Of a stretch of 40,251 bases of DNA, positions 6,782 to 40,251 are shown in pieces; the first letter of the stretch is position 1; each line of letters opens with the position of its first letter. A model generated the notes under the pieces. It saw nothing but the letters and a program-made list of their open reading frames with translations. It was not told the origin of the DNA and made no database searches. Origin of the DNA: a virus; IMG/VR virus record IMGVR_UViG_3300044608_002693, positions 1 to 40,251 of that record; one strand, 5' to 3'. The translations under genes and the position numbers were made by a program.

Positions 6782-9586
6782 ATGGCTCTGCAAAACGACA
6801 CATCTCGGATTCAATACAATGGCAACAACTCGACCACCTCGAGCTATGCCATTCCTTTCGTTTTCTTCGAGAACGCGCACATCAAGTGCGTGGTGACCAG
6901 CAGCGCCGGCGTCGATAGCACGCTTGCCTTGGGCAGCGGGTTCAACGTCACCGGGGCCGCCAACCCTAACGGCGGAAGTCTCACCACCACCACCGCGGTC
7001 CCGACCTCAAGCAAAGTCACCATCTTCCGCGAAGTCCCCGCCACCCAGACCACCAGCTACCAAGAGGGTGGAGATTTCCCCGCGGCCAGCCATGAGCGGG
7101 CACTGGACAAGCTGACCATGATCGCCCAGCAGACCAAGCGTCTGGCCGACCGCGCCCTCAAGGTCCCCGAAACACAAAACAACCCGAACGACCTTCCCAA
7201 CGCCGGAAGCGGTAACAAAGCTCTTGTCAGTAACGGAGGCTCCATTCAATGGTCAGACAATAGACCCGTTCCCATATATCCAACAGGACAAGGTGCCAAA
7301 TTGCTTGCAGCACCAGGCGGGGGTGGCGAGCCATCATGGCAAGATGCGCCAAATATTGCTGCTGGTGCCTTTGCGGCAAATACCAAACTCATTAATGGTG
7401 GGAGCGTTCAATTTTCTGCTGCCCGCTTTAATGGCGAACGGTGGGGCGACACTATCAACGTAAAAGATTTTGGTGCCGTTGGCGATGGCGTGGCAGACGA
7501 TTGGCTTCCCATACAACGAGCAATTTCTCAAGCGTTCCGTGAATTTGATGCGTCTACGCTTACGGAGTCCGATTTAGTTCCATGGGGAGGGCTGTTTAAT
7601 GAGCAAGTTATGGTGCCCCGTTTGTACAGGGGACAAGGACGCGCCACCGTGTACATACCATCTGGAACTTACAAAATAAGCAAACCATTGATCATTTCGG
7701 CTGGCACAAGGATTATCGGCCAAGCCAGAAACACATATATTAAGGCCGCTCCCAATTATTATGGAGCACTCATTGAAGATGCGTTTGTATGGGTTAATCG
7801 TACATTTTTTGCAAATCAACCAGCAAACCGCTTGTTTGGGGACGCCAGTTTTGAGTACGTGCATGGCGCAATTATTGAGGGTTTGACGTTTATCAACAAT
7901 GGGGTTGGCTTTACAACACCAAACGGTCCTGGGCCGACCATTAGTGGGTACAACTTTTTGCGATTTCCTTTTGGGGGCGGTGGACCAGTGATGACAACCA
8001 ACGCGCTTGTTAACGCTGGCAGCACAACCGTCGATCTGAATCAAGGGTTTCCGATGCCTATTGGAACCAGTCCTAAATGGAAAATCCAATTTGCAAACCA
8101 TAGCACAGTTTACGATGTCGAAGCTAAATCAATACCCTTTGGTACCACGATAACATTGTCTCCGCCTCTCACGCAAAGTGTAAGTGCGGGAACCGTTGTA
8201 AAAATAGGAATTGGACGGATCATTGGTATCAACATTGGACCTGGGGAAAATTCTCAAATTAGCAACTGCGACATCTACAACTGCGACATCGGGGTGTACA
8301 CTCAACAAGGATCACCCACTCCATTAATTCAAGACGTGTCTGTATGGGGTTGTGATGTGGCGTTTTGGTGTGACGGCGGTCCATCTTTATTAATCCGACC
8401 TTCCGGCGATGGAAATAATGTGTTTGTCCGTGGCGGCATGCTGACCTCATCAAACATAACAATGATTGGCTGCAAAGCAGAATCAATGTACGCGCCTTCA
8501 TGGCGTTCATTTGTTGAGGTGACCACTTCTGAACAGTCATCCGCTTCGCAACTAACCATTCTTGGAGGAAACTTCAATCCAGGCCCGCCTTCAAGTTTGG
8601 GCCAAACCACAGCAGACAATTCATGCATACTTCGCATTTTCAAAAACAAATTTAATCAGCCGGGACATGTTCACATAAGCGGGTTGAACACAATCAGCGG
8701 AGGTACAAACTTTGCACTATTGGTTGAGGCTGAAACTGGAACTATAGAAAAACGCTGGCCGCGTAGTGGAGCGCGTGACGGTGAAGAATATTTCAGTTTT
8801 GGCTCTGTCTCGCGTCATGCTGCAAGCGTTCTTGAAAGGTACAACTATACCAACAATGCCTACAATTTTCGCTTCACGCCTCAAAGTGTCTCAATGGCAG
8901 CACCCGGCTATCCTGTATACCATGGTGCTGGAACTATATTAGAATATGAAAGCGGATTGCTTCCTGGAACAGCACAGTGGAGTAGATCTGAAACAACGCT
9001 GACCATGACGTACGCGGACCATAATTTGCAAGTGGGAGATTATGTGTGGCCTCGAGATGGATCAAATTTTGGCGGATTTCCTATTTCTTTTCCGTCCAAT
9101 GACAGTGATGGATATCTCAATGTGATGGCTGGGTCCACGTTTCGGGTAAAAAGCATTGTGAATGCCAACACGTTTACCGCCGAATGTCTTAATTCGGGGC
9201 CGACCAGCGGCACTGCCCGTATTGCGCCCATGAGGTACGTTGATTTTCATACATTGCAATACAACGAGCACAGATTTCAAATGCCGCATGTTCTGGGAAA
9301 CTCCTCAAATCAGTATGTAGCATTTGGGTACTACGACAAAAAGAGCAACCTTATCGCTGGATTGCGTGTTCCTTCTGAAAAAAATGCCGAGTTTTACGTG
9401 GCAAAACAGCTGTCTATCGGCGGAACGATTCAAAGTCCCAGTGCGATTGTTCTCACCGGAACAGCCGCTCCTGGAATGTCGGCACCTAACGGATCTTTGT
9501 ATCTCCGCACCGATGGAGATGCGTCCACAACACTCTATGTCCGGGCATCCGGCGCATGGAAACCATTAGCATCCTATGATCCTTAA
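6782..9586 (+). CDS. Tail fibre / tailspike with T7-type anchor and pectate-lyase-like beta-helix
   Basis: This 934-residue receptor-binding protein starts with a domain typical of the T7 gp17 N-terminus (residues 1-150, with FPAASHERALDKLTMIAQQ), which attaches the fibre to the tail. After a Gly/Asn linker the sequence DFGAVGDGVADD (about residues 229-240) marks the start of a pectate-lyase-3 type right-handed beta-helix, the usual fold of capsule-degrading tailspikes. The C-terminus (GSLYLRTDGDASTTLYVR, then GAWKPL) is a common end of phage fibres. The coding sequence from about 7230 onward is clearly AT-richer than the anchor region, suggesting that the receptor-binding part was exchanged as a module. 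The ATG lies directly after a reversed 13-bp site. Polysaccharide substrate and catalytic residues cannot be told from sequence. Confidence 0.9.
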   Translation: MALQNDTSRIQYNGNNSTTSSYAIPFVFFENAHIKCVVTSSAGVDSTLALGSGFNVTGAANPNGGSLTTTTAVPTSSKVTIFREVPATQTTSYQEGGDFPAASHERALDKLTMIAQQTKRLADRALKVPETQNNPNDLPNAGSGNKALVSNGGSIQWSDNRPVPIYPTGQGAKLLAAPGGGGEPSWQDAPNIAAGAFAANTKLINGGSVQFSAARFNGERWGDTINVKDFGAVGDGVADDWLPIQRAISQAFREFDASTLTESDLVPWGGLFNEQVMVPRLYRGQGRATVYIPSGTYKISKPLIISAGTRIIGQARNTYIKAAPNYYGALIEDAFVWVNRTFFANQPANRLFGDASFEYVHGAIIEGLTFINNGVGFTTPNGPGPTISGYNFLRFPFGGGGPVMTTNALVNAGSTTVDLNQGFPMPIGTSPKWKIQFANHSTVYDVEAKSIPFGTTITLSPPLTQSVSAGTVVKIGIGRIIGINIGPGENSQISNCDIYNCDIGVYTQQGSPTPLIQDVSVWGCDVAFWCDGGPSLLIRPSGDGNNVFVRGGMLTSSNITMIGCKAESMYAPSWRSFVEVTTSEQSSASQLTILGGNFNPGPPSSLGQTTADNSCILRIFKNKFNQPGHVHISGLNTISGGTNFALLVEAETGTIEKRWPRSGARDGEEYFSFGSVSRHAASVLERYNYTNNAYNFRFTPQSVSMAAPGYPVYHGAGTILEYESGLLPGTAQWSRSETTLTMTYADHNLQVGDYVWPRDGSNFGGFPISFPSNDSDGYLNVMAGSTFRVKSIVNANTFTAECLNSGPTSGTARIAPMRYVDFHTLQYNEHRFQMPHVLGNSSNQYVAFGYYDKKSNLIAGLRVPSEKNAEFYVAKQLSIGGTIQSPSAIVLTGTAAPGMSAPNGSLYLRTDGDASTTLYVRASGAWKPLASYDP

Positions 9587-15369: not shown

Positions 15370-16512
15370 CTACAGCATTTTTTTGAAACTTTTTTTCAAC
15401 GCTTTTGTCATAGCATCAATTGATACCGCCGTGTAGCGGTTGCTGACGCGGACCGAATCGTGGTCGCAGATCAGCTGGCGGACGCGCTGATCGATGCCGG
15501 CCTCGGCCAGCAGGGAATTGGTGGTGTGACGCCATGAGTGGAATGTCTTGTCGGTAAGGCCGCGGCCTTCGCCACGCTTGGTGGTCTTCACGCGGACGAT
15601 GCCGGCGCGGTCGAGCAGCTGGGAGAAGTGTTTGCTGGCGGTGCCGTGCTCCATGGCCGCGAGGGTGGGGGTGATGAGGCCCTGGCCGCGGAGTGTTTGT
15701 AGCTCACCCATGAGCGGGACGGTGACCACCTTGCCGAGGCGGGATTTTTTCTCGGGAAGGAACCGGAGGTTGCCGTCCTCGATCTCCTCGTAGGACCGCC
15801 GGCGGGCGTCCCCGAGGCGCATGCCAAAGTAGAGGCCGAACAGGATGCAGGTGCGCCATTCGCCTTGGGCGACTTTGAGGATGGCCGCAATCTCGCCCTG
15901 GTTGAATGCTTTGCGTCCCGAGGGCGTGGCGTCCGCGCTCATACGGAAGAGGGCCGCGGGGTTGGCCTCGATGTTTCGGAGATGCATGGCGCGGGTAAAG
16001 ACGGCCCGGATGGTCTTGGTGACTTGCTGGGCGGTATTGGTGGACAGGCCGCGCTTGGTCATGCCGTGGTAGAACTCGCTTATATCCTCTGGCGTTATGG
16101 ACCGGAGATCGTGGCGGGTGCGCTGGCCGAGGAAGTCTGCGAAGTGCGCCACGTGTTTGCGGTAGCTCTCCATGCTGCGAGTCTTGGCCGTCTTGGCTGC
16201 CAAATAGCCTTGGGCGGCCTTTTCCCACGTGGAGCGCCGTCTGGCCGCGGACATGCCGGCGGCCCGTAGCAGGGCATCCAAGCGCGATTGCGCCCACACG
16301 CTGTCCGGCGTCTCGGAGCGTAGCTCTCGGCCTACGGCTTCCATCTCGTCTGCCACGCGCTGGGCGGTCCGGCGGGCGGTCTTGAGTGGCAACTTGGTCG
16401 AGCGTATGGTCTGACGCCAGAACCCGCCCTGGGGGTGATCCGGTGCCGCCACCCAGACGCGCATCCGGGCCAGCCAAAAAGGAGAGTTGGGCATGGTGGT
16501 CAGCGAGGCCAT
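15370..16512 (-). CDS. int: Tyrosine-family site-specific integrase
   Basis: This 380-residue protein has the complete catalytic set of phage integrases: Arg232 (FGMRLGDA), a beta-hairpin lysine (EKKSRLGK, residues 255-261), His325-x-x-Arg328 (HSWRHT), His351 (CDHDSV) and the nucleophile Tyr360 (NRYTAVS). The N-terminal residues 1-110 form an arm-binding and core-binding-like region, and residues 110-185 the SAM-like domain. It joins phage attP to host attB and so shows a temperate lifestyle. It is transcribed toward the lysis genes, opposite to the rest of the genome. Its 5' end lies next to a tRNA-like attP core flanked by short direct repeats, the usual arrangement for tRNA-targeting integrases. 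ATG at 16512 was chosen; Met7 is an alternative. Confidence 0.96.
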   Translation of the reverse strand: MASLTTMPNSPFWLARMRVWVAAPDHPQGGFWRQTIRSTKLPLKTARRTAQRVADEMEAVGRELRSETPDSVWAQSRLDALLRAAGMSAARRRSTWEKAAQGYLAAKTAKTRSMESYRKHVAHFADFLGQRTRHDLRSITPEDISEFYHGMTKRGLSTNTAQQVTKTIRAVFTRAMHLRNIEANPAALFRMSADATPSGRKAFNQGEIAAILKVAQGEWRTCILFGLYFGMRLGDARRRSYEEIEDGNLRFLPEKKSRLGKVVTVPLMGELQTLRGQGLITPTLAAMEHGTASKHFSQLLDRAGIVRVKTTKRGEGRGLTDKTFHSWRHTTNSLLAEAGIDQRVRQLICDHDSVRVSNRYTAVSIDAMTKALKKSFKKML

Positions 16513-16520
16513 GGGGAAAA

Positions 16521-16534
16521 AGTTAGCACAGCAA
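16521..16534 (+). promoter_or_regulatory. Putative integrase arm-type site 1
   Basis: AGTTAGCACAGCAA lies just upstream of the integrase start, between it and the tRNA-like core. It recurs as AGTTAGCCCAGCAA on the other side of the core, so it is likely a binding site for the integrase N-terminal domain. Confidence 0.6.
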
Positions 16535-16583
16535 TTTGTACATGCAATAGTGGCTAATGTGGTAAATTTTCGAGCGTTTTACT

Positions 16584-16633
16584 CTGTAACAGAAGGGCCG
16601 GCCCCGAGCGTCGGTTCGATTCCGACCCTCGCC
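16584..16633 (+). other. attP: attP core: 3' half of a tRNA-Tyr-like gene
   Basis: The segment begins with an anticodon loop CTGTAAC (anticodon GTA at 16586-16588), followed by the 3' strand of the anticodon stem. A variable-arm hairpin (GGGCCGGCCC, from 16595), a perfect T-arm (GTCGG, loop TTCGATT, CCGAC at 16610-16626) and the acceptor strand CCTCGCC (16627-16633) complete it. The long variable arm with GTA anticodon points to tRNA-Tyr. There is no 5' half in the window, so this is not an expressed tRNA. Phages that integrate into tRNA genes carry just such a 3' part to restore the host gene. Exact crossover limits cannot be set without the host sequence. Confidence 0.8.
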
Positions 16634-16665
16634 TCTCTCTCTGTAGAATGGGCCGCGGAGCCGAG

Positions 16666-16688
16666 AGTTAGCCCAGCAAGTTAGCACA
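16666..16688 (+). promoter_or_regulatory. Putative integrase arm-type sites 2 and 3
   Basis: AGTTAGCCCAGCAA (16666-16679) is directly followed by AGTTAGCACA (16679-16688), in the same orientation as the copy at 16521. Two copies on this side and one on the integrase side bracket the attP core. Confidence 0.6.
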
Positions 16689-16991: not shown

Positions 16992-17231
16992 CTATTGATT
17001 CTTCTTGCGTGGGGGCAGTTTGCTTTTGGCTGCTGCCTGGTGCTTCTGGCCTTTTCTCTCCGCCGCGTCAGCCGCGTCATTGAGAGCTTGGGTGAGGACC
17101 CACCGGACATACGCCGATAGGGAACTGAAACCCTGGGCTTTGGCTTGGGCCTTGGCGCGTTTGGTCAGCGCCGGTTCCATCGAAATGCCGGCGTGGACGC
17201 TCTTTAGGTGCGTGGGTTTTTTGGGATTCAT
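16992..17231 (-). CDS. Ribbon-helix-helix DNA-binding protein (candidate repressor)
   Basis: The ATG at 17231 is preferred (79 residues, MNPKKPTHLKS) because GAAGG lies nine bases before it; a longer start at 17258 is possible. Residues about 16-47 (GISMEPALTKRAKAQAKAQG, then SSLSAYVRWVLTQAL) follow the CopG/Arc ribbon-helix-helix pattern: a short strand, helix A, turn and helix B. The C-terminal tail is Lys/Gln-rich. Such proteins bind operator DNA as dimers. It is transcribed away from a second ribbon-helix-helix gene across a region of inverted repeats, an arrangement like that of the Arc/Mnt immunity control of phage P22. A role in lysogeny control is an inference. Confidence 0.75.
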   Translation of the reverse strand: MNPKKPTHLKSVHAGISMEPALTKRAKAQAKAQGFSSLSAYVRWVLTQALNDAADAAERKGQKHQAAAKSKLPPRKKNQ

Positions 17232-17344
17232 AGCGGCTTTACCTTCGCACAATACCAAAAGTTAACAAGTTTTGGGCATGGGGTTTTCTGCCCATCTTTT
17301 CGCTTGAACCTTGTTAAAGGTTTGGCAAGAGTTGGCGCATCGAT
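17232..17344. promoter_or_regulatory. Divergent control region with inverted repeats
   Basis: Between two divergent ribbon-helix-helix genes are several inverted repeats. They are CCAAAA/TTTTGG with nine bases between (17255-17275), GGGCA/TGCCC (17274-17293) and the perfect AACCTTGTTAAAGGTT (17307-17322). In addition TTAACAAG (17262-17269) is the reverse complement of CTTGTTAA (17310-17317). The segment is AT-richer than its surroundings. These look like operators over back-to-back promoters. No -10/-35 pair with good spacing could be assigned confidently. Confidence 0.6.
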
Positions 17345-17506
17345 ATGGCGAACAGGCGCAAACCCGCATCCCAAAAGGTCCGAGCCACGGGCATCTCATT
17401 GCCACCGGACCTGCTCAAGAAAGCCCAGCGTTTCGCGTTCCAGCAGGACATGAGTTTGTCCGCGCTCATCCGCGAGTTGCTCATCACCCAGCTGGCCGCG
17501 AAATGA
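17345..17506 (+). CDS. Short ribbon-helix-helix DNA-binding protein
   Basis: This 53-residue frame (MANRRKPASQKVRATGISLP...) has the typical CopG/Arc shape: a basic N-terminus, a short strand (RATGISLP), helix A (PDLLKKAQRFAFQQ), a turn with MSLSA, and helix B (LIRELLITQL). The whole protein is one domain, like P22 Arc (also 53 residues). The stop overlaps the next start (ATGA at 17503), supporting translation. It opens the rightward operon leading to the recombination genes, directly beside the control region, so it may act as the counterpart (Cro-like or antirepressor role) of the minus-strand ribbon-helix-helix protein. Which one is the lysogeny repressor cannot be told. Confidence 0.78.
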   Translation: MANRRKPASQKVRATGISLPPDLLKKAQRFAFQQDMSLSALIRELLITQLAAK

Positions 17507-25232: not shown

Positions 25233-26933
25233 ATGGAACAAAAGGCTGATCTTGTCCGGCTGGGGGAGTATGTGCTCACCCGCCACCAGGACCTGCTGTC
25301 CAACCGCAAGGTGTGGGACACCATGTGGCAGGACATCGCGGACTTTTGTTTGCCCCGCAAGGCGGAGATCGTCAACAAGAAGGAATACCCGGACACGTCA
25401 CGCAATGACGTGCTCTTCGATTCCACGGCGATTTACGCCAATGCGGTGCTGGCCAACGGTCAGCTGTCTTACATGTCGCCGGCGGACAGCCGGTGGTTTG
25501 TTTACGAGCCACCCGCGGCCATCAAAGACAACGACAAGGCGAAGACGTGGTTTCAGCAGTGCTCCGAGATCGTCCAGCTGAACCTGGCCAACTCCAACTT
25601 CTACTCCGAAGTCCATGAACTCTATTTTGACGATGGCACGTTTGGCACTTACGCGATGTTTTGCGAACCTGGTCGCCGTCATCCGGTCACCTTCACCACC
25701 TTCCCCTGTGGCAGCTTCTGCATCTCGGAAGATGACGAGGGCCTGGTGGATACGATCTTCCGCGAACTGAAGATGACCTGCTTGCAGGCCGCGGACAAAT
25801 TCGGGGAGGAGAACCTCTCGGAGAAGATGCGGAAGCAGGTCGAGGAATACCGCAAGACCGGCAAGGGCGGCAACACGCTGCACGATTTTGTCCATGCCAT
25901 CTATCCGCGCCGGCACAAGGACCGCGCTCCGGGCAAGGCAGATGGCGAGAACAAGCCGATTGCCAGCGTCTACGTGGACAAGTCGAGCAAGCACGTGGTG
26001 CGCTCGAGCGGATTTGACGAGCAGCCTTTCTTTGCCGGTCGCCACCTCAAGTGGGGCGATTCGGCCTACGGATGGTCCCCGGGTTGGATTGCTATGCCCG
26101 AGGCAAGGCAGCTGAACTTTTTGGTCAAGCAGATGGATGCCTTGGCCGAGATCAAAGCCTTCCCCAGAATTTTGATCCCGAGCACGCATGAGAACGAAGT
26201 GGATCTCCGCTCCGGTGGATTCACCTACTTCGATCCTCTCAATCCCAACGCGCTGCCCAAGGAATGGTTGACCCAGGGCGAATACCAGATCGGCCTCGAG
26301 CGCGAGAAGCGCAAGGAAGCCTCGATCCAGCGGGCGTTCCACGTGGATCTCTTCCAGATGTTTGCCATGCTCGACCAGAAGCAGATGACGGCCCGCGAAG
26401 TGGCCGAACGCGCCTCGGAAAAGCTGGTGCAATTCAGCCCGACCTTTGCCCGCAAAACGACCGAACTCTTCAACCCTCTGCTCCGCCGCGTTTTCAATCT
26501 CCACCTGCGCCAGGGCCTCTTCCCGCCGCCGCCCCCGGACGTGATCGTGCAGAACGAAACGACCGGCATCCCCGAGATCCCCGAGCCGGAAGTGACCTAC
26601 ACGTCCCGCGTGGCCTTGGCCATCAAGAGCCTGCACAACCTGGCCTTCATGCGGACCATGGAGCGTCTGGCCCCGATCATCCCGCTCAAACCCGAGATCC
26701 TCGACAACTATGACATGGACGCCGTGTCCCGCGACCTCGGTCGCAATGACGGGGTGCCCGCGGATTGGATCTTGGACACCGACAAGCGCGACCAGATGCG
26801 CGAGGAGCGGGCCGCGCAAATGCAGGCCATGCAGGAGCAGCAGAACATGATGGCCCAGGCGGACATGGCGGCCAAGGCCGGCTCCATCAAGAGTGACAGC
26901 ATGGTAGGCCAAGCCATCCAGCAATCTCTATGA
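25233..26933 (+). CDS. Portal protein (T7 gp8-like head-tail connector)
   Basis: The 566-residue size and pattern fit the T7-type head-to-tail connector family: the N-terminus (LLSNRKVWDTMWQDIADF), a middle region with GDSAYGWSPGWIAMPEA, and the helical segment around MTAREVAERASEKLVQF that forms the central stem. The C-terminus is Gln/Met-rich. A dodecamer of this protein forms the portal vertex through which DNA enters and leaves. The gap before it is filled by a 13-bp site, and its stop overlaps the next start (ATGA). Confidence 0.93.
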   Translation: MEQKADLVRLGEYVLTRHQDLLSNRKVWDTMWQDIADFCLPRKAEIVNKKEYPDTSRNDVLFDSTAIYANAVLANGQLSYMSPADSRWFVYEPPAAIKDNDKAKTWFQQCSEIVQLNLANSNFYSEVHELYFDDGTFGTYAMFCEPGRRHPVTFTTFPCGSFCISEDDEGLVDTIFRELKMTCLQAADKFGEENLSEKMRKQVEEYRKTGKGGNTLHDFVHAIYPRRHKDRAPGKADGENKPIASVYVDKSSKHVVRSSGFDEQPFFAGRHLKWGDSAYGWSPGWIAMPEARQLNFLVKQMDALAEIKAFPRILIPSTHENEVDLRSGGFTYFDPLNPNALPKEWLTQGEYQIGLEREKRKEASIQRAFHVDLFQMFAMLDQKQMTAREVAERASEKLVQFSPTFARKTTELFNPLLRRVFNLHLRQGLFPPPPPDVIVQNETTGIPEIPEPEVTYTSRVALAIKSLHNLAFMRTMERLAPIIPLKPEILDNYDMDAVSRDLGRNDGVPADWILDTDKRDQMREERAAQMQAMQEQQNMMAQADMAAKAGSIKSDSMVGQAIQQSL

Positions 26934-27223: not shown

Positions 27224-27296
27224 TGCAGGGTGGAGAAGCAGTATCTCGCCTCGCTCATAACGAAGGAGATCGTCGGTGCAAATCCGACCCCTGCAA
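27224..27296 (+). tRNA. tRNA-Met (CAT), initiator-like
   Basis: The cloverleaf has a perfect acceptor stem (TGCAGGG with CCCTGCA), a D-stem GAGA/TCTC (27233-27247) and an anticodon loop CTCATAA (27254-27260, anticodon CAT at 27256-27258). The anticodon stem has one C-A mismatch, and the T-arm is GTCGG/CCGAC with loop TGCAAAT. The discriminator A is followed by CC and not a full CCA. The layout GGGTGGAG, the CTCATAA loop and the end CTGCAACC closely resemble E. coli initiator tRNA-fMet, though the three G-C pairs of the initiator anticodon stem are missing. It lies in the late operon between the Bbp19-like and scaffold genes. A CAT tRNA reading as isoleucine is an alternative. Confidence 0.82.
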
Positions 27297-27304
27297 CCTG
27301 CGCG

Positions 27305-29861: not shown

Positions 29862-29880
29862 AACCAAAGGAGAAACATCA

Positions 29881-30779
29881 TGTCTGCTATTACCCAGATC
29901 CCCGAGTTTTTCACGACCGAGTTTTCCAGTAACTGGAATTTCTTGGTTCAGCAAAAACTCTCCAAGCTCCGCGAATTCGTGGTCATCGACCGCGTTCAAG
30001 GAAAAGAGAAAAAGTACAATCAGATGGCCAGCGTCAACATGACGCAGATCACTGCGCGTGCTCAAACCACCAACCTCACCGACACGGCGATGGCCCAACG
30101 CTGGCTGCGCCCCCTGCAATACGAGAAGGCTGACCTCCTCGATGAATGGGATTCCGAACTGCTGGGCGAAGTTTCGCTCCCGCAGAGCGAGTTGGTGACC
30201 AACCACGCCATGGCTTTTGCCCGCAAGTGCGACGAGATCATCCTCGCCGCCGCTGTCGGCACGGCCTCCACCGGAGCCACCGGAACGACCAACACGGTCC
30301 TTCCCGCCGGCCAGAAAATCGCCCACGACTTTGTCGAGAGCGGTTCTGCCGCGACCAGTGGCCTCACCATCGCCAAACTGCGCCAAGCCAAGTTTATCTT
30401 GGATGACGCGGACGTGGACGAGGATGACCCGCGTATCATCGCGGTCAGTCCCCGCCAATTGCAGGACCTGCTCCGCACCACCGAAGTGACCTCCGCCGAC
30501 TACAATACGGTGAAGGCTCTGGTGGCCGGTCAGCTGGACACCTTCATGGGCTTCAAGTTCCGCGTGGTCAACAAGGCGTTCTTCACCCTGGCCAGCAGCC
30601 GCCGCGAAGTGGTTGCCTACGTCAAGAGTGGACTCCGCATGACCGATGCCGGACGCCGTGTCCACGTGGACATCCGCCCCGACCGCAGTCACTCGCTGCA
30701 AATCCGCACCACCGCTTCCATCGGCGCAACCCGCATGGAAGAGAAGAAAGTGGTCCAGATCAGCTGCTCCGAAGCCTAA
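29881..30779 (+). CDS. Major capsid protein
   Basis: The 299-residue protein has the features of HK97-fold capsid proteins of T7-like podoviruses: N-terminal helix region (FFTTEFSSNWNFLVQQKL), the stretch ARAQTTNLTDTAMAQRW, a long-helix region with SELVTNHAMAFARKCDEI, and a C-terminal part with GLRMTDAGRRVHVDIRPDR. The gene has the strongest ribosome-binding site in the window (AAAGGAG, eight bases before ATG), as expected for the most abundant protein. It lies after the scaffold and before the tail genes. Confidence 0.93.
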
Positions 30780-38328: not shown

Positions 38329-40251
38329 CGCCCAACGAAGGACAACAGCTGGCCATCGAAAGCCGGGACCGCGAACTTCCCGACAATCACTGGAACCGCG
38401 TCTATACCGACCCCGACTATTTCGGGGAGTTTGCCAAGCGTCCGGCCATCCAGACCGGCGCGTCCCTCTCGCCTTTCCCCGAATCGTACGCCAAGCGGCA
38501 GGCCAACATTGCCTACTTGTCGAGCAGCCTCGAGATCCCCGCGGAGGAAATGCCCGCCATCTACGAGGCCAAGAAAAACGAGATCGGCAAGACCGCGCTG
38601 CAAACGCCCACGCTCTCCGACGAGGGCCTCTTCAACTATTTCAAGAAGCAGTTTGACCGCGAGAACGAGGTCAACACCGCGGCGGATGGCATCTACCAAG
38701 AGGTGCAGAAATCGGTCTTCCAGGGCCTTTTCGATTCCCAAGCCGGCACCGACATCACCGGCCAGCCTGCCTACCGCCCGCTCCTCGAGCAAAAGCTCAC
38801 CGAGGCCGGCGAACTCCTCTCCGATGAGGACCGGCTCCGTATCCGGGAGAACGCGGACAAGATGGCGGACAACCTCCGCCGCGCCAATGATTCCATCGGG
38901 GACGAGGCACGCTGGCTCTTCGACATCGTCAGCAAGCAGACCGGACGCGGGCAGGAATACGAACTGGCCGGCGAGCAACCCAACCCCGCCGGCACGGTGG
39001 GCGGTCTGGGTCCGGTGATGAATCTGGCGGTCAAGCAACCCGAGGCCGCCCCCGCGGGCGAGGTCGATCTGAACGACCCCGAGATGGTCAACTTCCAGAT
39101 GGAGCAGGTCCTCGAGAAGTTTGCGGACATGCCGACCGAGCGCCGGCAATCGATCTACCTTCTGGCTGGGGCCTTTGCCGAACTCAACCAAGTGGACAAG
39201 GGCATCTTCTACCAAGCCGCGGAAACCCTGGGCCGCTTCCTTACCCGCGAGATGGGCGAGCGCATCAGCCGCAACTTCACCGAGGAATCCATCCGCGGCC
39301 AGCAGCGTCTACTGCAAGGCGACCTCCCGCTCTACGAGGCGACCAACCTCGACGGGAGCAAAGGCTTGAGCCAAGCGCCCACGTCCGGCCAAGCCCCGAT
39401 CACCGCGGAGCAGCGCGAGAAGCTCAAGGCGGACGCCGCCCGCAAACTGAAGATCCTCCAGATCAAGCGCGAACTGGTTAACCTGGCCGATACCCAGATC
39501 GACCCGATCAAGGTGGTCACCGATTGGCCTACGTGGGAGCAGGGCTTCTACGGCTTTGTCGGATCGATCCCTTACGCCGGCATCGCCGCCATCCCCTTTG
39601 TCGGATTCCCCGCCATCACCGCGTCCTTCTTTGGGCAATACAAAGATGACCTCCTCCTCGAATACCCCGACATGGACCCCGACCAGGCGGCAGCCATTTC
39701 CGCCTTGGCCGCCCCCATGGCCGCCGGCCTCGAGCTAATCCAAGCCAACTTGGTCATGGGCCGATTTGTGTCCCTCGACCGCGCCATCAAATTTTTCCTC
39801 AAGCCCTCGCGCAATCCCATGACGCGAATCATCGCCCGCGGCACCGCCACCTTTGGCTTGGAAACCGGCATCGAACTGTCCCAGAACCGCGTCCTGCCCA
39901 TCCTGCAAACCCTCGGGGCCGCCTTGAGCGATGACATACCGGACTACGATTGGCGCAAAGACATCGAAGCATTTGACGAGGAACTGGGCGTCACCGCGGT
40001 GACCATGCTGCTCTTCACTCTCACCGGCCTGCCCTTTATCACCTCGCAGGAGATCGGGCGCAACGCGGCCTACCTCCAAGATAAGAAGATGCTGAAGTAT
40101 TTTGGCATGAGCGAGGAGCAGGCTGACCGCGTCTCGACCGCGCTGACCAAGAAGGAGCGCGTGGCCGCGTTCAAGGAAGCCGAGGCCGCCCGCGACCCCG
40201 CCCTCATCGAGGCCGGACGCCGCCAGCTTTTCGTGGACACCATGGCCCAGC
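38325..40251 (+). CDS. Giant internal virion / polyvalent protein, N-terminal part
   Basis: The ATG at 38325 overlaps the previous stop. The frame runs off the window end and continues in the same frame at base 3, giving about 2,800 codons in all. The first 390 residues are polar and helical. Then hydrophobic stretches appear (about 39540-39640, GFYGFVGSIPYAGIAAIPFV; 39690-39750; and 39990-40040, VTMLLFTLTGLPF), typical of ejection proteins crossing the inner membrane. It takes the position of T7 gp16 but lacks the transglycosylase, which is on the previous gene. The remaining domains are described at 3-6734. Confidence 0.88.
   Translation, partial: MTPNEGQQLAIESRDRELPDNHWNRVYTDPDYFGEFAKRPAIQTGASLSPFPESYAKRQANIAYLSSSLEIPAEEMPAIYEAKKNEIGKTALQTPTLSDEGLFNYFKKQFDRENEVNTAADGIYQEVQKSVFQGLFDSQAGTDITGQPAYRPLLEQKLTEAGELLSDEDRLRIRENADKMADNLRRANDSIGDEARWLFDIVSKQTGRGQEYELAGEQPNPAGTVGGLGPVMNLAVKQPEAAPAGEVDLNDPEMVNFQMEQVLEKFADMPTERRQSIYLLAGAFAELNQVDKGIFYQAAETLGRFLTREMGERISRNFTEESIRGQQRLLQGDLPLYEATNLDGSKGLSQAPTSGQAPITAEQREKLKADAARKLKILQIKRELVNLADTQIDPIKVVTDWPTWEQGFYGFVGSIPYAGIAAIPFVGFPAITASFFGQYKDDLLLEYPDMDPDQAAAISALAAPMAAGLELIQANLVMGRFVSLDRAIKFFLKPSRNPMTRIIARGTATFGLETGIELSQNRVLPILQTLGAALSDDIPDYDWRKDIEAFDEELGVTAVTMLLFTLTGLPFITSQEIGRNAAYLQDKKMLKYFGMSEEQADRVSTALTKKERVAAFKEAEAARDPALIEAGRRQLFVDTMAQ
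40006..40251. repeat. Terminal overlap, right copy (matches 1-246)
   Basis: See the left copy at 1-246. The identical part (40125-40251) is exactly 127 bases, a common maximal k-mer length of short-read assemblers, which supports an assembly-overlap origin of this duplication. Confidence 0.9.

Follow-up and report, generated by a model that had tools for sequence, protein, structure and literature searches.

Which host gene is the target of an uncultured phage whose integrase gene lies beside a fragment of a tRNA gene? This question was addressed for a 40,251 bp virus record (the window, analysed over its full length), in which positions 16521-16688 had been taken in a preliminary description for an attP with the 3' half of a tRNA-Tyr gene and three arm-type repeats. 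The reading as an attP, in which arm-type repeats and the 3' end of a tRNA gene adjoin a tyrosine integrase, held up, and the tRNA was reassigned. The region very probably serves a temperate, podovirus-like phage as its attP, which the adjacent tyrosine integrase would recombine with the 3' end of a tRNA-Cys gene in the host. By itself, the window site is an ordinary tRNA-end attP of a known type. It links a group of uncultured temperate phages to a host in a concrete and testable way (tRNA-Cys, probably in Verrucomicrobiota), and the comparative set allows an integrase lineage to be followed as its tRNA target changes and the rest of the attP is retained.

Phage Genome and Integrase

The two ends of the window share a 246 bp overlap with 98% identity (1-246 versus 40006-40251; six mismatches), indicating a circular or permuted record in which the attP site is internal to the phage DNA. 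Most simply, the record would represent a complete phage genome, circular or permuted, and the six mismatches suggest a circular assembly across strain variants. The GC content of the phage is 59%, and its other genes include those for RecT-like and exonuclease proteins and RusA.

15370-16512, minus strand: tyrosine recombinase integrase, 380 aa

The product of this gene is a tyrosine recombinase. Its Phage_integrase domain (Pfam PF00589) scored 35.6 bits against a curated cut-off of 27.1, SAM-like domains were also detected, and the PHROG integrase match reached 2.8e-31. Residues R232, K255/K256, H325, R328, H351, and Y360, which we take to be the catalytic R-K-H-R-H-Y set, were invariant among nine aligned integrases. 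The gene starts at 16512 on the minus strand and adjoins the attP region, in agreement with the preliminary description. In the phage collection, the sole match to the integrase was that of Akkermansia phage DTMo-2021a (28% identical), and a scan of that phage for a T-arm of the same kind detected none.

Organization of the Attachment Site

The elements recognized in and around the core are as follows.

16521-16530, plus strand: arm-type site 1, AGTTAGCACA, on the integrase side; exact repeat at about -88 from the core, position kept in relatives
16534-16543, plus strand: degenerate arm-type site 2, ATTTGTACAT (AGTTMTACAY in relatives); an inexact repeat, proposed from conservation
16582-16589, plus strand: left copy of the core-flanking direct repeat, CTCTGTAA
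16609-16635, plus strand: attP core, 27 bp, matching the 3' end of tRNA-Cys from Verrucomicrobiota without mismatch; 25 bp correspond to tRNA positions 49-73, plus one base on each side
16615-16621, plus strand: T-loop and presumed 7 bp overlap, TTCGATT
16639-16646, plus strand: right copy of the core-flanking direct repeat, CTCTGTAG, beyond the tRNA 3' end
16666-16675, plus strand: arm-type site 3, AGTTAGCCCA; exact repeat, +32 from the core
16679-16688, plus strand: arm-type site 4, AGTTAGCACA; exact repeat, +45 from the core

The three AGTTAGC(A/C)CA repeats reported originally (16521, 16666, and 16679) were confirmed as the only ones in the 40,251 bp, where 0.03 were expected, and 0 of 100 shuffles reached three copies. 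The spacing within each arm pair (16521/16534 and 16666/16679) is 13 bp, and all four arm sites are putative integrase-binding sites. Both copies of the CTCTGTAR repeat that flanks the core are conserved in most relatives; perhaps they bind an accessory factor, which is a guess.

Identity of the tRNA

The 27 bp core has no second match in the window within 3 mismatches (0.00 expected). It consists of C48 (16609), the two strands of the T-stem (16610-16614, GTCGG, and 16622-16626, CCGAC), the acceptor strand (16627-16633), U73 (16634), and one more base. Thus, the T-arm (16610-16626) and the 3' strand of the acceptor stem are intact, as noted previously. In contrast, the stretch at 16584-16608, previously read as an anticodon loop with GTA followed by a long variable arm, is not tRNA sequence: identity to tRNA-Cys genes ends at 16609, and the 25 positions before it match these genes at only 3 to 7. 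The supposed anticodon loop belongs to the flanking repeat, since it recurs past the tRNA 3' end. The identity block runs from the T-arm to the 3' end and leaves out the anticodon loop, as in a tRNA attachment site of the T/J class.

In bacteria, the identity elements of tRNA-Cys include U73, G2-C71, and C3-G70, whereas tRNA-Tyr needs A73 (PMC9976931). All bacterial Cys determinants tested (U73, G2-C71, and C3-G70) were found in the core, within its identity to the 3' end of tRNA-Cys(GCA). The 25-mer CGTCGGTTCGATTCCGACCCTCGCC occurred 41 times in 39 viral stretches, and the next base was T (U73) every time. Genome scans for this 25-mer covered two phyla; an exact match was present in 5 of the 388 Verrucomicrobiota genomes and in none of the 299 Pseudomonadota genomes. 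Three of the five matches were tRNA-Cys(GCA) genes, all with T73 and an encoded CCA, and two were tRNA-Phe genes with A73. Judged by the determinants in the core, the tRNA-Cys matches with T73, and the poor match to tRNA-Tyr, the tRNA source of the attP core is tRNA-Cys and not tRNA-Tyr.

The two tRNA-Phe matches might imply that the phage targets a different tRNA whose T-arm and acceptor end are the same, for example tRNA-Phe. We consider this unlikely, because the A73 of these genes differs from the T found after the block in all viral occurrences, and a change of A73 to T would damage tRNA-Phe identity. Still less probable is the original proposal that the site is an approximately 50-base 3' half of tRNA-Tyr and that the phage integrates there. 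Although a CTGTAAC string lies upstream of the T-arm at a plausible distance, the CTCTGTAR motif is present on both sides of the core, no tRNA was called at the attP by ARAGORN, and position 73 is T, where tRNA-Tyr has A. The proposed search for tRNA-Tyr genes with an identical 3' end gave at best 20 of 25 positions among 26 readable Verrucomicrobiota tRNA-Tyr genes, which have a different T-arm (CTGTAAATC) and A73 in 26 of 26 cases. For the Verrucomicrobiota genes examined, the tRNA-Tyr reading is already refuted.

Further tRNA-Cys sequences were observed in other viral loci. At L056:8610-8690, beside a very distant integrase, a longer tRNA-Cys-like segment with a GCA anticodon loop precedes the same 25-mer; this phage is an independent user of tRNA-Cys. 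At L039:8219-8366 and L066:3308-3455, the 25-mer occurs twice at a distance of 123 bp, next to an integrase of another type. In L147, the integrase is separated from the tRNA-Cys fragment by a second fragment resembling a tRNA T-arm (GGGGG-TTCGAAT-CCCTC, at 9114), perhaps as a result of nested insertions. Two candidates for integrated ends were rejected: the phage contig L047, with a full tRNA-Cys, had no integrase recognized among the ORFs in 4 kb and was not retained as an attL, and the 25-mers near both ends of 3300032249_000809 were explained by the terminal overlap of a circular contig rather than by attL and attR.

Conserved Frame and Variable Core in Relatives

Integrases 55-98% identical to that of the window were found at 33 viral loci. 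Wherever upstream DNA was present, the attP frame was the same, with a right-hand arm pair at the constant positions +32/+45 relative to the core and a left pair at about -88/-75; the second arm site of the left pair is weak and was missed by a simple score in many relatives. The core was that of tRNA-Cys in relatives with integrases approximately 66-98% identical, whereas four relatives at 55-59% identity (L027, L028, L030, and L032) had a tRNA-Gly core, CGAGGGTTCGATTCCCTTCACCCGCT. The Cys core appeared again in the viral relative L051 (56%). A 25-mer of the Gly core was present in 80 of the 388 Verrucomicrobiota genomes, and all 10 loci read were tRNA-Gly genes. The overlap TTCGATT is common to the Cys and Gly cores.

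Two further relatives (L165:488-556 and L171:7812-7880) retain the Gly core in its left half, which is joined to an unrelated, non-tRNA right half of equal length; the arms are otherwise intact, and the break falls inside the T-loop. Our tentative and rather doubtful reading is that an exchangeable tRNA core sits in an otherwise fixed attP frame of paired arms and CTCTGTAR repeats, and that these two loci might represent target switching in the overlap, caught midway. That the block is a decayed tRNA remnant or the relic of a phage tRNA and plays no part in integration, as might be argued from the lack of an integrated copy of the window phage, is the least credible alternative, given that the core is exactly conserved while its flanks diverge, lies at fixed spacing from the arm pairs and beside the integrase, and is swapped in step with the integrase lineage.

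Integrated Relatives in Verrucomicrobiota Genomes

Prophages with the same attL and attR had been anticipated; however, a scan of the genome collection revealed no integrated copy of the window phage or of a close relative, and the homologous integrases were at most approximately 31% identical. For this reason, we infer the use of tRNA-Cys from the sequence and the relatives. The Verrucomicrobiota genome G302 contains a 27% identical integrase in a 5,064 bp element, which is located between an intact tRNA-Gly(CCC) gene and its 3' fragment and is bounded by an exact 30 bp direct repeat. The tRNA-Gly fragment is directly upstream of the integrase start, the same layout as in the window, and the genome also carries an exact tRNA-Cys match. 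Among 18 homologous integrases read from the Verrucomicrobiota family to which G302 belongs, 15 had a putative tRNA T-arm/acceptor fragment close upstream in the same orientation; by sequence, these fragments come from several different tRNAs, and most end in CCA. Two tRNA-Cys 3' fragments were found beside integrases 28% and 22% identical in a separate Verrucomicrobiota MAG, titled Akkermansia muciniphila. The contig of one of them contains ORFs that read, by eye, as flagellar genes, making the title of this MAG doubtful.

Proposed Recombination and Known Systems

In the proposed reaction, both arm pairs (16521/16534, 16666/16679) and the T-stem half-sites GTCGG and CCGAC would be bound by the integrase, with strand exchange across the 7 bp T-loop TTCGATT. 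The phage would bring a new T-arm/acceptor 3' end, by which tRNA-Cys would be rebuilt, and the displaced host 3' fragment would land beside the integrase. Because the phage has TCT where the host genes encode TCCA, the rebuilt tRNA would presumably depend on the CCA-adding enzyme.

A comparable arrangement is known from mycobacteriophage Ms6, whose 26 bp attP core is identical to a tRNA gene from the T-loop to the acceptor end and stops short of the variable region; the 7 bp T-loop is the possible site of strand exchange (PMC1762012). The window core likewise covers the T-loop to the acceptor end without the variable region, and a crossover in the T-loop is probable by analogy; the exact crossover point and the binding of the arms by the integrase are what we infer. 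The likeness is drawn from the attP layout; Ms6 uses tRNA-Ala in mycobacteria, in contrast to tRNA-Cys and a probable Verrucomicrobiota host here. In Islander islands of the T/J class, crossover occurs in the T-stem region, the 3' fragment is displaced, and the tRNA is restored by the element (PMC4383910). This signature is displayed by the 5 kb element of G302; unlike such islands, the window is a phage genome in circular or packaged form.

Probable Host

The host phylum is likely Verrucomicrobiota, as suggested by the 25-27 bp match together with the distant homologues. The direct handle on the host that the preliminary description had promised is only partly available: the tRNA match exists, but it comprises 27 bases instead of about 50 and therefore points to a phylum rather than a species. 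Local GC in the three genomes with exact tRNA-Cys matches was 0.58, 0.59, and 0.44, compared with 0.59 for the phage. An argument against this host is that, in the phage collection, the best matches of the head-tail connector (25233-26933) and capsid (29880-30779) were pelagiphages of the HTVC010P group, although they were only approximately 33% and 45% identical, respectively. SAR11 hosts, in contrast to this phage, are low in GC, and the window integrase had no match in the records of the HTVC010P group. Pelagiphage-like capsid and connector genes coexist in the window with an integrase and a GC content of 59%. By an exact tRNA match beside the integrase, the marine phage group G11 was previously assigned to Verrucomicrobia (Mizuno et al. 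2013, PMC3861242), with the warning that such matches by themselves resolve the host no further than phylum or class. G11 shares this feature with the window phage and differs from it in GC content (approximately 44% versus 59%).

Other features of the window were also recorded. A complete tRNA-Met(CAT) gene is located at 27224-27298 between structural genes. Two small divergent ORFs (16992-17258 and 17345-17506) adjoin the attP and may encode regulators of lysogeny or excision; the latter showed a weak, below-cut-off resemblance to ribbon-helix-helix proteins.
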